From positions 1 to 32,910 of the forward strand of contig NZ_NHOY01000001.1 of NCBI RefSeq assembly GCF_002252755.1: DNA of 32,910 nt. Direction: 5' to 3'. The position numbers and the translations under genes were made by a program. Below, piece after piece: positions 1,260-21,048 of the stretch. Origin of the DNA: Halorubrum sp. Hd13. GTDB taxonomy: Archaea > Halobacteriota > Halobacteria > Halobacteriales > Haloferacaceae. The notes below the pieces were generated by a model. That model saw nothing but the letters and a program-made list of their open reading frames with translations, made no database searches and was not told the origin of the DNA. Positions within the stretch are counted from its first letter, which is position 1. The number at the start of each line of letters is the position of its first letter.

Positions 1260-1698
1260 CACATCGATAGGAGGGTGTATCCGAATGCGATTTCCTGAAC
1301 ACATCGATAGAGGGGTGTCCACAAGAACTACTTCTCATGAACACGTTGACCGGTATTCTGATCTAGCGGTTGGATGTCGTTCGCTTAACTCAGCAAGACT
1401 GGATGGGCCGGATTACCGCCTAATATTTATTTTCCCGAATATATTCGTTTTGGCGGGTTTAACAGCGAATTACATATCGATAGAGGGGTGTATACGGGGA
1501 CTAATAGAAACGCAATAATTGGCCTCAGATAGGTGACTCAAATAAGAATTGTGGCCCGATAACAGACAGCCAATACACATCGATAGAGGGGTGTATACGA
1601 GACCAAATGGAAAGGTAGCATTGTAGGGAAATGTCAACTGAAATGATAAAGAACGTGGCTTGGTAGCAAACACATCGAACACATCGATAGAGGGGTGT
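1260..1698 (+). repeat. Five forward origin recognition box-like repeats
   Basis: Copies of CACATCGATAGAGGGGTGT lie at 1260-1278 (two bases different), 1300-1318, 1473-1491 (one base different), 1576-1594 and 1680-1698. The last three are about 103 bases apart. The G-run followed by TGT resembles the G-string end of archaeal origin recognition boxes (family knowledge). The copy at 1680 is preceded by an extra half copy, CACATCGAA, at 1671-1679. Orc1/Cdc6 binding is inferred. Confidence 0.85.
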
Positions 1699-1809
1699 GC
1701 GGAAACTAATGGAAACTACTCATTAGGGGGGAGGCGGCCAGATACACAGAGACGGCCCTCTAAAAGAGCGCGGAGCGGACAGCTAACTACAATATGGCTG
1801 GAATCTCTA

Positions 1810-3279
1810 CTACGTCTGGTTACGGATCTGCGCTTTGACGACAGAGGTGACCTCATCCTCAGAAATCGCTTCAATACGCGAGTCCTCTCGAAGAGTTTCA
1901 AGAATCGTCTCTGGCCGTTCTCCAAACTGGAACTCGAGAAACATCCCGGAGCTGGGGCCGTGACTCCGCCGCTCGAAGTCGACCAGCGAATACGTCGTGA
2001 GCTCTTTCATCTTATTCACATACGTTTCCTGGTGGTACTGATCGGCGTCAATAGCGTCGGTCAGATACTGATACACACGATAGCCAGTTGTACTCCTAGC
2101 GGTCCCGCCGTCAGTGTGGGAAGCAACCGCCGCAGTGGCGTACAGACAGAGCTTCTTCTGTGTGCTAATGCCGCGAACGACCTCCAACACCCGATTCTTT
2201 TCGACCTTTTCTTGTGCGGTACGGACGTGCTTTTCGCGCACGCGGGTGTCGCCTTCACGTTCAGCTAATTCGCCGGCGACCCGCATGAGATCGATCGCCT
2301 TTCTGGCGTCACCATGCGTCTGTGCTGCGAATGCCGCTGCGAGTGGGATCACGTCGTCGTCGACAACGTCGTCATGGAACGCGTCCTGACGGCGTCGAAG
2401 AATTGCTTGGAGTTGGTTCGCGTCGTAATCGTCGAAATGGACGTCTTCAGGAGTTAACGAACTGACAGCGCGACTCCCAACAGACTCCATCATCTTCGTG
2501 TCGTTTGAGATCGCAACGACCGAAATGTATGCGTTCAACTCATCGTTTGCCCCAGCTCGGGAGAGCTGATACAGCAGTCGTGAAAACGCGGGCTCCTGTT
2601 TGTCTCGCCGTCCGACGAGCATATCCAGTTCATCGAGGACAAACACAACAGAGTCGAAGTGCTCGTTGACGATCCGATAGAGCTCATCCCACTTCTCTTT
2701 CGTCGCCACGCCGTGTTTAGGCACCTCGATAGGGACACCTGCCGCATCGGCAGCCTGCTGAACGAGTTCATACACGGCGATACCAAGCGTATCCAAATCC
2801 TGGCAGTTCACTTCAATAGTGCCAAACCGGATGTCGCGGCTTTCACAGATACGGCTGATGTTATGGCAAACAGCTTTTGTGATGAGGGATTTGCCTGTCC
2901 CGGACGGTCCGTAGAGAAATAGATTGGGGGGGCGGTTGTCACCGAGCGCAACGCGAAGCATCTTGGTGACTTCTTGGAGTTGCTCGTCACGACCCACGAT
3001 GCGGTCCTCTTCGACAACGTAATTCGGATCGAGTAGCGCTCGGTCCCGAATCAGCCCGTCCTGATCGTCGAACTCGAGGAGCATGTCCTCGATAGACTGT
3101 GATGACTCCTCGGAGTCAGCCTCGTCTTCAGATTGTGAGTTACCATTTGTGACGTGAGAGGATGAAGACTGTCGCGAAGGATCAGACTGCGACGCATTCG
3201 ACAGCTCAGCTTGAGCCGTCAACTCGTCCTCCGACGGTCCCCGGGTATCTGCGGGATCATCGGAGTCGTCAGTACCCAT
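1810..3279 (-). CDS. orc1: Orc1/Cdc6 replication initiator (AAA+ ATPase)
   Basis: This 489-residue initiator would bind origin repeats and load the MCM helicase. An acidic, serine-rich N-terminal extension (about residues 1-85) precedes the AAA+ core: Walker A GPSGTGKS near 124-131, Walker B VFVLDELDML near 212-221 and a sensor-1 AISND stretch. The C-terminal third matches the winged-helix DNA-binding part of Orc1/Cdc6, with STQKKLCLYA and the TYSLVDF region. I start at MGTDDSDD (3279): a TATA-like TTTTTGATA on the minus strand at about 3302-3310 sits near the leaderless distance. An in-frame start at 3306 would overlap that box. The gene is surrounded on both sides by its presumed binding repeats, and a degenerate inverted copy lies in its own promoter (3315-3333), which suggests autoregulation. 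Confidence 0.95.
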   Translation of the reverse strand: MGTDDSDDPADTRGPSEDELTAQAELSNASQSDPSRQSSSSHVTNGNSQSEDEADSEESSQSIEDMLLEFDDQDGLIRDRALLDPNYVVEEDRIVGRDEQLQEVTKMLRVALGDNRPPNLFLYGPSGTGKSLITKAVCHNISRICESRDIRFGTIEVNCQDLDTLGIAVYELVQQAADAAGVPIEVPKHGVATKEKWDELYRIVNEHFDSVVFVLDELDMLVGRRDKQEPAFSRLLYQLSRAGANDELNAYISVVAISNDTKMMESVGSRAVSSLTPEDVHFDDYDANQLQAILRRRQDAFHDDVVDDDVIPLAAAFAAQTHGDARKAIDLMRVAGELAEREGDTRVREKHVRTAQEKVEKNRVLEVVRGISTQKKLCLYATAAVASHTDGGTARSTTGYRVYQYLTDAIDADQYHQETYVNKMKELTTYSLVDFERRSHGPSSGMFLEFQFGERPETILETLREDSRIEAISEDEVTSVVKAQIRNQT

Positions 3280-3314
3280 ATGCCAATTGATACCCGCCTC
3301 TATCAAAAAGGTTC

Positions 3315-3333
3315 CCCCACCTCTATCGAAGTG
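3315..3333 (-). repeat. Degenerate inverted repeat copy at the orc1 promoter
   Basis: CCCCACCTCTATCGAAGTG keeps CTCTATCGA and the terminal GTG of the inverse consensus but has a broken G-run. It lies 36-54 bases before the orc1 start, just upstream of the TATA-like box, where a bound initiator could control its own gene. Confidence 0.5.
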
Positions 3334-3364
3334 TGATTAGCCGTGTGAAACCCGTGATACCGGA

Positions 3365-3396
3365 TTAACCACTTGATAATCATGATAATGGGTTAA
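3365..3396. promoter_or_regulatory. Inverted repeat upstream of orc1
   Basis: TTAACC (3365-3370) and GGTTAA (3391-3396) flank a 20-base A/T-rich spacer containing the internal palindrome ATAATCATGATAAT-like core. The arms equal the outer six bases of the longer palindromes at 274-313 and 4060-4100, so a shared DNA-binding protein is possible. Confidence 0.45.
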
Positions 3397-3445
3397 CTGG
3401 CGGTAGCCGGTGACGATGTGTTCGTGAGTACACGGTCGAAGACAC

Positions 3446-3464
3446 ACACCCCTCTATCGATGTG
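3446..3464 (-). repeat. Inverted origin repeat copy
   Basis: ACACCCCTCTATCGATGTG is the exact inverse of the consensus 19-mer. It is the only perfect copy in this orientation and faces the forward cluster that starts at 3634. Confidence 0.85.
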
Positions 3465-3633
3465 TTTTTGCACAAGAGTCCAGAGGGATATCTGCGTTAC
3501 GTCAGGTCAATCTACCGGTGATCGGTAGAAACCACACGCTTAACATCCTCTTGAATGGGTTTGGACGATAGAATAGTAGGATAGAAAACGTTGTCTGATA
3601 AACCACAGAACATAAAGGGCGCAACACATCGAA

Positions 3634-3992
3634 CACATCGATAGAGGGGTGTGTGTGTATCGTGTTAGTAGTAAAAGAAGAAGAAGAGAAGAAGACGATT
3701 TCAGCTACGGATAGAGAACTGTTAATAGAGGCTATCCCGCTCATACGACTTCGTGGCGCCGTCAAGTGGCAGTTCCTCGACGCAAGATCTAGGTTTATCC
3801 CCCACCCCGTGAATACATCGAACACATCGATAGAGGGGTGTGTGTCTCGACGTTCGACGAGTAGACAGTCGCGTTCGTTGGGATCGCACCGATGCCTGCG
3901 ACCAAGCGGTGAATGCGGCACTGACGGATCGCCTCTTCCCGCCTATCTCATGGCTCCCACGACAGAACGTGAACACATCGATAGAGGGGTGT
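3634..3992 (+). repeat. Three forward origin recognition box-like repeats
   Basis: Perfect copies of CACATCGATAGAGGGGTGT lie at 3634-3652, 3823-3841 and 3974-3992. The first two are preceded directly by a half copy (CACATCGAA at 3625-3633; TACATCGAA at 3814-3822), giving a nine-base tandem step. Confidence 0.85.
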
Positions 3993-4251: not shown

Positions 4252-4860
4252 CATCCTCCCCGCGCTGAAGCGCGAGCATTCCTTCGTGGGGCGTCGGGCC
4301 GTTCTGTCAGCCCCCGAAGGCAACTTCCCCTCCCGCTGGAGGGTACCGAGTTCGTGCGCTACACGTCGGCCCTCGAAACGAGGGTATGGTGTATTCAACG
4401 TCCGAGAGGGACGCGGTATCCGCTTGTGCCGTACCCGATACCGCTTGACCGAAGCGTCCGAATACCTGGCAACCACCCACGGTTGGAACGTGGACGGACA
4501 CGGGTCGTGCCATCGACCGTACTCCGCCGACGAAGGCGGAGTGCAACCGCGAACGGGGCGTGTTTTGATGTGCTGTCGCCCCCTCGTGTGCGCGGTCGTT
4601 GCCGACCGTCCCCAGTGACGGGTAGGGTTACTGTGAGGACGGCGGACGAACCTTAACCACGTACTCCCCACCGGGTTTGCCGGTGGTGGGCGTGGAACCG
4701 TCCGTATCAGCGGGAAGCAACCCCGTGTCTTCCGATTGAGAGTTTACGCGATTGGCTTGCCGCACGGCACGACGCCGGGCTACTTGATAATGTCGGTTGT
4801 TGAGGGTTTGTCGGATTCATCCCCGCGCTAAAGCACGGGGCTTTCTCCTCGATTTTCCGT
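4248..4860 (-). mobile_element. Non-autonomous IS200/IS605-type (TnpB family) element, nested
   Basis: Read on the minus strand, the left end near 4860 holds the hairpin CCCCGTGCTTTAGCGCGGGG (4821-4840) followed by GATGAATCCGACAAAC, the same left end as the tnpB element at 32.5 kb. The right end (4277 to 4248) holds GCTCGCGCTTCAGCGCGGGG and then AGGATGTCAA, the same right end as the complete element at 21.1 kb. The interior of about 530 bases contains several hairpins (for example the inverted CCCACCGG arms near 4667-4690) and no convincing TnpB domain, so it is probably an internally deleted or decayed element that would need a helper. It interrupts an older plus-strand element. Confidence 0.65.
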
Positions 4861-18042: not shown

Positions 18043-18096
18043 GTAATTGTGTAAACCGACTAGACGACTGGTTCGCTGGAGGGAGCGGACGGGTAG

Positions 18097-18130
18097 GCAC
18101 TGCTGAATCCATCATCTACATCTGACACAG
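18097..18130 (-). repeat. Degenerate partial copy of the MITE-like repeat
   Basis: CTGCTGAATCCATCATCTAC and the following ATCTGACAC resemble the end of the copy at 17978 (TTGCTGAATTCATCCTCTGT, then ATCTCGCAC). The other end is missing. Confidence 0.35.
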
Positions 18131-18230
18131 CAGTTCCTGATAGAACCCCGATAAGATGGTTCCACTATCTTCGGTCAGAGCCTCGCCCAAACAGTTGAGG
18201 TTCTTTGCGTCATATTGGTAGTAGAAACCC

Positions 18231-19484
18231 GTGTCATCTACAACAACCAACTACGATATCGTGGTCTGGGGAGCCACCGGATTCGCTGGCCAACTCGTCG
18301 CCGAACATCTCACCAGTCACTATTCCGCCGCTGAACTGTCTGTTGCTCTTGGTGGTCGAAATGAATCTAAGCTCCGCCGACTCGCAGAAGGGCTTGCAAA
18401 TGAGTCTGATCGAGAGGAGGTCCCCATTGTCGTCGGTGATGCCACCAAACCGGCGAGCCTCCGCGGGATAGCCGGCCAAACGAAGGTCGTCTGTACGACA
18501 GTCGGGCCCTACACAACATACGGAACACCACTCGTCGAAGCCTGCATTGAGGCTGGAACCGACTACTGTGATCTCACCGGGGAGATTAACTGGGTTCGAG
18601 AGATGATCGACCGCTATCACGACGATGCTATGGCTGCCGACGTGAAAATTGTCCACAGCTGTGGGTTCGATTCGATCCCATCCGACCTCGGGGTCAAACT
18701 GTTGCAATCGTACGCTATCGAGGAGTTTGGAGACTCTTGTGAGTTCGTTCGTATCTATCTCGAAGATGGAAAGGGTGAGGTGAGTGGCGGCACCTTAGCT
18801 AGTGCGGCCGAATTATTCGAAGCCGCCGCAACTGATCCGATTGCCCGAGAAACAGTATCGAATCCGTACTCGTTGGCTCCACCGGGCGAACGCTGCGGTG
18901 TCGATACAGGCGTACAACGACGACCACAGCGAGATTCCATCCGCTCGATATGGACGGCTCCCTCGCCGATGGCAGCCGTCAACGAACGGGTAATCCGACG
19001 GAGCAATGCCCTCTTGGAGTATCCGTGGGGCCGAGAGTTTCGGTGTACAGAGGTCATCCCAACCAGTTCTGGGATCGGCGGTGCCGCAGAAGCCGGCGGG
19101 ATCGCACTCGGCTTGGGTGTCGGAACCGCTGCGATGAAGAGTCGGCTGCTTCGGCGTGGATTGCGTCGGTTCGTGTTCCCTGAGCCGGGCACAGGGCCCT
19201 CGGAAGCGGAGATCAAATCAGGTCACTTCTTGATTCGCGTCATCGGCCGAGGGACAACGACCGACGGGCCGTTCACTGTCATGAGTGAGATCGGAGCCGA
19301 ACTGGATCCTGGGTATGGCGCAACCGCCCGGATGCTCGGAGAGGCTGGGATTTGCTTGCTGCGAGGTGAGACGGTGTCACCGCTAGACGGTGGCATTCTG
19401 ACGCCCGCTTCGGGGATTGGTGATCCACTCGGTGATCGACTTCGGGATGTTGGCTTCACCGTGACCGCTGGTGAGTGGCAATGA
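18231..19484 (+). CDS. Saccharopine dehydrogenase-like / trans-acting enoyl reductase family protein
   Basis: A 417-residue NAD(P)-dependent reductase-type protein. The N-terminal Rossmann fold shows DIVVWGATGFAGQLVAEHL (GxTGFxG motif), LGGRNESKL and VVGDATKPASL. The family block YCDLTGEINWVREMIDRYH and VHSCGFDSIPSDLG follow near residues 105-150. The C-terminal half lacks the membrane-anchored lysine-forming enzyme features and fits the trans-acting enoyl reductase subgroup, so lipid modification is more likely than lysine metabolism. The start is GTG at 18231. It stands alone, with IS-derived repeats upstream and a tnpB element downstream. The substrate cannot be told from sequence. Confidence 0.85.
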   Translation: MSSTTTNYDIVVWGATGFAGQLVAEHLTSHYSAAELSVALGGRNESKLRRLAEGLANESDREEVPIVVGDATKPASLRGIAGQTKVVCTTVGPYTTYGTPLVEACIEAGTDYCDLTGEINWVREMIDRYHDDAMAADVKIVHSCGFDSIPSDLGVKLLQSYAIEEFGDSCEFVRIYLEDGKGEVSGGTLASAAELFEAAATDPIARETVSNPYSLAPPGERCGVDTGVQRRPQRDSIRSIWTAPSPMAAVNERVIRRSNALLEYPWGREFRCTEVIPTSSGIGGAAEAGGIALGLGVGTAAMKSRLLRRGLRRFVFPEPGTGPSEAEIKSGHFLIRVIGRGTTTDGPFTVMSEIGAELDPGYGATARMLGEAGICLLRGETVSPLDGGILTPASGIGDPLGDRLRDVGFTVTAGEWQ

Positions 19485-19773: not shown

Positions 19774-21048
19774 ATGGGTCGAACCATCCGAACCTTCGAG
19801 GCTACGATTACGAACCAGCAACAGGTTCGTGACGGCCTCGACCAACTCGGATGGGCTGCCTCAAAGCTCTGGAACGTCGGTCGCTACTACGCACAAGAAC
19901 AGTGGGACGAAACGGGCGAGATTCCCGATGACGGGGAACTCAAGACCGAACTCAAAGGCCACGAACGCTACACGGACTTGCATTCTCAATCCAGTCAGCG
20001 CGTTCTCGAAGAACTCGCTGAAGCGTTCAACGGCTGGTTCGGCAAGCGTCGGAACGGCGACGACCGCGCCCGACCGCCCGGCTACCGCAAACACGGAGAT
20101 TCCCACCCGCGTTCAACCGTGTCGTTCAAATCGGCTGGTTTCAAGCACGACGGACAGTTCACCCGTGTCCGCCTCTCGAAAGGCCGTAACCTCAAAGAAC
20201 ACCGTTCAGACTTCATCCTCTGCGAGTACCAGACTCGTCCGGACGTTGACCTGACCAAGTGGGACATTCAACAAGTTCGAGCCGTCTACAAACGCGACGA
20301 GTGGCGGCTTCAATTCATCTGTCGCACCACCATCGACCCGGAACCACCGGGCGATGAGGTAGCTGGTGTAGACCTCGGGATATGCAACTTCGCCGCCGTC
20401 TCGTTCGGCGGAGAATCCGTGTTGTATCCCGGTGGCGCACTCAAAGAAGACGAATACTACTTCACGAAGAAGAAAGCCAAGTGCGACGATTCTTCGTCCC
20501 GTGAGGCTACCCGTCTTGACCGAAAGCGAACGGGTCGCCGGACGCACTTCTTGCACGCACTCTCGAAAGCAATCGTAGAGGAGTGCGTCGAACGAGGCGT
20601 CGGAACCCTTGTCGTGGGCGACCTCGGCGGCATCCGAGAAGGCAACAAGAACGGCAAACCCCGAAATTGGGGCCACCACGGTAATCTCGACTTGCACGGG
20701 TGGGCGTTCGACCGATTCACGACGCTTCTGCACTACAAGGCTGAAGCGGAAGGCATCGACGTGGAGTTGGTGTCCGAACGCGATACGTCGAAGGCGTGTT
20801 CGGCGTGCGGCCACACAGATGACAACCAGCGAGTTGAACGCGGTCTGTACGTGTGTGAGAAGTGCGATACGGTTGCGAACGCGGACGTGAACGGTGCGGA
20901 GAACATTCGACAAAAGGTACTCCCGAGTCTCGCCACAGATGGCGGTGATAGGGATAACGGCTGGTTGGCACAGCCAGCGGTTCACCTGTTCGACCGTAGT
21001 GAGGGTGTTTTCGCCCCACGAGAACAGGTTGTTAACCGCGAATCTTAA
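19774..21048 (+). CDS. tnpB: TnpB RNA-guided endonuclease
   Basis: A 424-residue TnpB from MGRTIRTFEAT. The N-terminal helical part is followed by the RuvC domain: RuvC-I GVDLGICNFAAV with Asp200, RuvC-II region TLVVGDLGGIRE near 279-289, and RuvC-III ANADVNGAENI with Asp371. A zinc ribbon lies between (Cys342, Cys345, Cys361, Cys364). The usual RuvC-II Glu position (in E-D-L) is Gly282 here, with Glu289 seven residues later; this is discussed as a finding. Known TnpBs cut DNA beside the element's target motif using a guide RNA from the right end and favour retention of the element (family knowledge). The tail after residue 385 is variable. Confidence 0.93.
   Translation: MGRTIRTFEATITNQQQVRDGLDQLGWAASKLWNVGRYYAQEQWDETGEIPDDGELKTELKGHERYTDLHSQSSQRVLEELAEAFNGWFGKRRNGDDRARPPGYRKHGDSHPRSTVSFKSAGFKHDGQFTRVRLSKGRNLKEHRSDFILCEYQTRPDVDLTKWDIQQVRAVYKRDEWRLQFICRTTIDPEPPGDEVAGVDLGICNFAAVSFGGESVLYPGGALKEDEYYFTKKKAKCDDSSSREATRLDRKRTGRRTHFLHALSKAIVEECVERGVGTLVVGDLGGIREGNKNGKPRNWGHHGNLDLHGWAFDRFTTLLHYKAEAEGIDVELVSERDTSKACSACGHTDDNQRVERGLYVCEKCDTVANADVNGAENIRQKVLPSLATDGGDRDNGWLAQPAVHLFDRSEGVFAPREQVVNRES

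Follow-up and report, generated by a model that had tools for sequence, protein, structure and literature searches.

A probable Orc1-dependent origin of a haloarchaeal megaplasmid, with a core inverted relative to most relatives

In iteron plasmid origins of bacteria, the binding site of the initiator recurs as direct repeats next to its gene, and the haloarchaeal locus described here is laid out in the same way; unlike those origins, it has an initiator of the Orc1/Cdc6 rather than the RepA type. Among haloarchaeal plasmids, Wu et al. 2012 (PMC3528665) count the single Orc/Cdc6 of pL131 and four of the five of pHLAC01 as origin-associated, and report boxes that flank the orc gene on either side. 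Two origins of Haloarcula hispanica are also close (PMC3936714): at oriC2-cdc6E, the box-rich region oriC2D directly downstream restrains the origin, probably by titration; at oriC1, a C-rich tract (CCCCCTCCCC) just inside an ORB makes up one half of an enhancer. Judged by its sequence, the locus reported here is a haloarchaeal ORB origin of this known kind; the new element is a minority arrangement of its core that has arisen repeatedly by inversion.

The window, i.e. the whole stretch analysed, is a 33-kb draft piece of Halorubrum sp. Hd13 (positions 1–32910 of contig C36; 32,910 nucleotides). A scan of it for the 19-mer CACATCGATAGAGGGGTGT, allowing up to three mismatches, returned nine matches where dinucleotide shuffles of the window expect 0.00: eight forward (six exact, two with one or two mismatches) and one reverse and exact, in the intergenic DNA directly adjoining an orc1/cdc6 gene (Table 1). 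This is the set of near-perfect copies that the first-pass annotation had described around one orc1. Its statement that the repeat occurs nowhere else in the window holds beyond it, as no copy lies away from the orc1 locus in the whole draft assembly (3,811,317 bases, 130 contigs); the genome-wide scatter that it had set against its own reading is thus not seen. It overlooked a tenth, degenerate copy with four mismatches in the orc1 promoter, as well as a half-site (CACATCGAA) that abuts the copies at 3634 and 1680, directly before each. The step of about 103 bases that it reported is real but limited to 1473–1576–1680 (103 and 104), the remaining steps of the array being 40 and 173. The spread-out layout, which it considered unlike compact known origins, resolves into a compact upstream core and a downstream array; two-sided boxes (PMC3528665) and a downstream box-rich region (PMC3936714) had both been described before.

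Table 1. Coordinates of the origin features in the window
Feature	Position	Strand	Remarks
orc1/cdc6 initiator gene	1810..3279	−	ATG at 3279, the start used in annotated orthologues
orc1 ORF	1810..3306	−	opens at 3306 with TTG
Degenerate promoter copy	3315..3333	−	CACTTCGATAGAGGTGGGG; directly before T-run and start codon; probable self-repression site
ORB A	3446..3464	−	points to orc1; arm of 27-nt perfect inverted repeat (3440–3466)
ORB B (central box)	3634..3652	+	half-site CACATCGAA at 3625–3633; flipped relative to most relatives
GAA-rich purine tract	3666..3697	+	where the core of relatives is least stable; probable unwinding element
C-rich enhancer-like tract	3799..3808	+	adjoins C here, A in most relatives; likened to H. 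hispanica oriC1
ORB C	3823..3841	+	second arm of the 27-nt inverted repeat (3821–3847)
Origin core, A to C	3446..3841		inverted relative to the majority arrangement
ORB D	3974..3992	+	outer upstream copy
Downstream array	1260..1698	+	five same-strand ORBs: 1260 (2 mismatches), 1300, 1473 (1 mismatch), 1576, 1680

The orc1 product contains the Pfam domains Cdc6_lid, AAA_16 and Cdc6_C (lid, AAA+ and winged-helix), and matches Cdc6-1 of S. solfataricus (chain 2qby_A; E 2.6e-49). tblastn places matches to it on numerous plasmids of haloarchaea, with identity reaching at least 60% in about fifty, and a genome scan added 56 further loci from many genera. In at least 15 haloarchaeal genera, orthologous orc1 genes (76–96% identity) on plasmids and contigs are flanked by the same boxes, and nearly all orthologues that are at least 75% identical have the same box beside the gene. 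Of 170 family genomes, 46 have the box with at most one mismatch, a patchy distribution that differs from that of oriC1, which is universal in haloarchaea; an exact 21-mer is present in 66 of 392 genomes drawn from the order. The reversed-pattern control gave zero in both scans among the matches listed. In eight complete plasmids the box copies are nearly all confined to the orc1 locus, the strays being single copies on pL131, pHLAC01 and in Haloarcula JP-L23. The proposal that the boxes are private to the orc1 locus is thus borne out in the genome itself and nearly so in complete plasmids, and the association of box with orc1, together with a layout kept across many genera, argues well for the annotated role of the repeats as origin boxes of the adjacent gene.

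The first-pass annotation had called the repeat family new-looking, but it is not new, because the same 19-mer is found on plasmids of many genera; a search of haloarchaeal plasmids, which it had suggested, places the repeat around the orthologous orc1 genes. Natronomonas pharaonis pL131 (82%) and Halorubrum lacusprofundi pHLAC01 (87%) carry an orthologous Orc1 and the identical 19-mer on both sides of the gene. PMC3528665 groups Orc/Cdc6 proteins that are at least 80% identical, and both plasmids lie above that value and have the matching box. pL131 has one match to the window Orc1 and the same boxes there; since its single Orc/Cdc6 is listed with an origin in that study, the origin family was already predicted in 2012. 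We infer that the box published for pL131 is the box of the window; as a text string, the box core ATCGATAGAGGGG had no match in the open-access literature.

Box sequence varies with the initiator. None of the six further orc1 loci of the same genome has the 19-mer, and a sister clade with Orc1 at 65–68% identity has a changed box (ACAAATCGATAG..., seen for locus L027). The orc1 on contig C41 of the same genome (6500–13500) has a repeat of its own, ACACTTGCAGGGTGGTGTGT, in up to five copies; this separate repeat fits a model of one box set per Orc1.

Comparison of the relatives reveals a conserved anatomy. Read towards orc1, the usual order is D−, C−, B+, A+, promoter copy, orc1 and then downstream copies on the minus strand, and each class of box has its own surroundings: B has a half-site (ACACATCGA) in front, and GTGTGT with an A-rich tract behind; A has CCCCCnCCC in front; and the promoter copy, conserved in 31 loci, has a T-run behind. 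Averaging the stability profiles of 65 loci puts the weakest 30-bp stretch on the G-string side of B, with its centre at +45 from the first base of that box; the minimum falls at +20 to +80 of B in 47 of these loci, and positions +44 to +55 are 92–96% purine. In majority-orientation loci the C-rich tract lies inside A in 48 of 56 cases and inside C in 5 of 56. The C/A frame encloses an asymmetric module: B with its half-site, an easily melted GAA-rich tract, and the C-rich tract CCCCCACCCC. In the window, A and C are inverted ORBs ending in the G-string, and their 27-nt perfect inverted repeat contains AGAGGGGTGT. Inverted G-string ORBs around an AT-rich region are also found at H. hispanica oriC1, whose C-rich tract CCCCCTCCCC is resembled by that of the family; oriC1m, however, has two inverted ORBs with the tract on both sides, whereas the present family adds box B in the middle as a third ORB and mostly has a single tract. 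Two further candidates for order within the core were set aside: folding of the melting interval was no better than in shuffles, with no support for a hairpin, and a reading of the purine tract as similar to bacterial DnaA-trios was dropped, the longest run being 3.0 against 1.8 in shuffles and not general. Divergent C–B distances cluster near multiples of ~10.4 bp, which is suggestive of helical phasing of the boxes; the relatives are non-independent, however, and the downstream array follows the pattern only if identical values are each counted.

Skew gives a mixed picture, suggestive of an origin at this position in two of four plasmids. The GC skew of pL131 has its maximum 37 bases from B and its minimum nearly opposite; a GC/TA skew extremum lies near the origin in two of the four and is absent there in the other two, and the Haloplanus plasmid, although strongly skewed, has its extrema away from the origin. 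Because the genome of the window has other orc1 genes, this origin could be dormant, i.e. structurally intact but silent, with the replicon copied from another origin; several plasmids likewise carry more than one Orc1, and dormant origins are known in Haloferax mediterranei (PMC4595724). We consider dormancy improbable, however: conservation extends to Orc1, boxes, melting tract and C-tract alike, and on several complete plasmids the only Orc1 match is the one at the box-bearing locus.

The core of the window departs from the usual order: B points the other way. Its C–B interval matches the reverse complement of the B–A intervals of relatives; compared with H. kocurii L068, the locus keeps the same order as far as C, is reversed between C and A (418 bases, 71% identity) and becomes collinear again beyond A, and the inversion breakpoints fall within the 27-nt perfect inverted repeat that has its arms at A and C. 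The cores of pL131 and pHLAC01, by contrast, are in the majority orientation. About 10 of 66 classifiable loci are inverted (9 of 65 by script, N. halophilum then being added by manual reading), the inverted relatives being N. versiforme JCM 10478, three Natribaculum, N. gelatinilyticum, Natrarchaeobius, Halostagnicola A-GB9-2, N. ejinorense and, on manual reading, N. halophilum. L119 is inverted on reading, although first scored in the majority orientation; L101 and L124 had been miscalled as inverted owing to degenerate boxes. Perfect inverted arms of 20–28 nt are present in several inverted loci, and assembly error is argued against in general because several of these loci sit in complete plasmid records. 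Box orientation, melting tract and C-tract flip together: the strand of B agrees with the side of the melting tract in 64 of 65 loci (p 3e-10) and with the side of the C-tract in 50 of 51 (p 4e-7), relatedness being ignored in both, and the one discordant locus is probably L088, which is ambiguous in orientation.

The inversion is recurrent. The Orc1 tree gives seven changes of orientation for the nine loci scored first (N. halophilum, which pairs with N. gelatinilyticum, was excluded from this count), and at least three of them are forced by well-supported branches. Both arrangements occur in one named species, N. versiforme, in which BOL5-4 has the majority orientation and JCM 10478 the inverted one. 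We found nothing relevant on inversion at archaeal origins among the titles listed for the open-access literature. The recurrence, the presence of both arrangements in N. versiforme and the perfectly identical inverted arms could also point to an active reversible switch, in which recombination between inverted boxes during growth alters the direction or timing of initiation; if so, the module of B, unwinding tract and enhancer would flip within a growing population and change the side or efficiency of replication start. We give this reading only a small chance: the majority orientation is strongly in excess and the inverted loci show some clustering on the tree (500 shuffles gave a value as low in 21 cases), both of which suit rare events. 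Next to the core, no dedicated recombinase was noticed in the ORF list or in the annotated flanking regions of relatives, part of the neighbouring ORFs having been searched.

Other features were also noticed. Beyond the downstream array, a second G-string box (~ACACTnTGnAnnnGGGGTGTG) is present in three copies on the minus strand (734–754, 880–900 and 923–943); L059 of H. halophilum and locus L057 each have the block that holds it (89.6% over 347 nt), likewise past the array, and no such box was seen near the other orc1 genes of the genome of the window. L057 (boxes at 18079–18257 of G118 contig C79) and L059 also have five tandem boxes in exact 40-base steps beyond the usual downstream array. 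On the other side of the window core, 4254–4283 and 4817–4846 are similar GC-rich palindromic ends ~560 bases apart, like those of a decayed IS200/IS605-type element, and 19774–21048 (+) encodes a TnpB-type protein (OrfB_IS605, Cas12f1-like).

Taken as a whole, the locus is very likely an Orc1-dependent origin of a haloarchaeal megaplasmid whose A–C core has been turned over by recombination; comparison with relatives suggests that the contig is part of such a plasmid. We propose that Orc1 from the adjacent gene would bind the 19-base boxes; that C and A would act as the usual inverted pair, G-strings outward, around a directional module of B, a GAA-rich unwinding tract on the G-string side of B and a C-rich enhancer-like tract; and that, once on A, B and C, Orc1 would melt the purine tract and bring about helicase loading. 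Autoregulation is suggested by the degenerate copy in the promoter, where bound Orc1 would repress orc1; the tandem boxes downstream of the gene suggest titration of Orc1 that may limit copy number, by analogy with the proposal for oriC2D (PMC3936714). Both clusters lie downstream of the initiator gene, with 11 boxes in 722 bp in H. hispanica and five in about 440 bp here. It is very improbable that the boxes are instead operators of a transcription regulator, with an orc1 product that does not initiate replication here: one degenerate box does lie in the orc1 promoter, but the boxes accompany an AAA+/winged-helix Orc1 from genus to genus, have the halophile G-string, flank the melting tract, and are changed where the sister Orc1s have diverged.

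As the simplest cause of the flip we infer recombination between the short inverted boxes, by which the A–C core would have been turned over. Because the C/A frame is symmetric, a flip leaves the boxes flanking the melting tract with their G-strings outward; this symmetry is probably the reason that the flip is tolerated, and the origin probably continues to work.

We found no bench study of initiation by this plasmid origin family in the open-access literature. Our analysis resolves the repeats into a map of the parts of a widespread plasmid origin: an inverted-box frame, a directional box tied to a melting tract, a tract resembling an enhancer, a box in the promoter and a probable titration array. 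Inversion in nature supplies two isomers made of the same parts, and thereby a ready experiment on box order and polarity in archaea, with a core small enough to be moved as one fragment.
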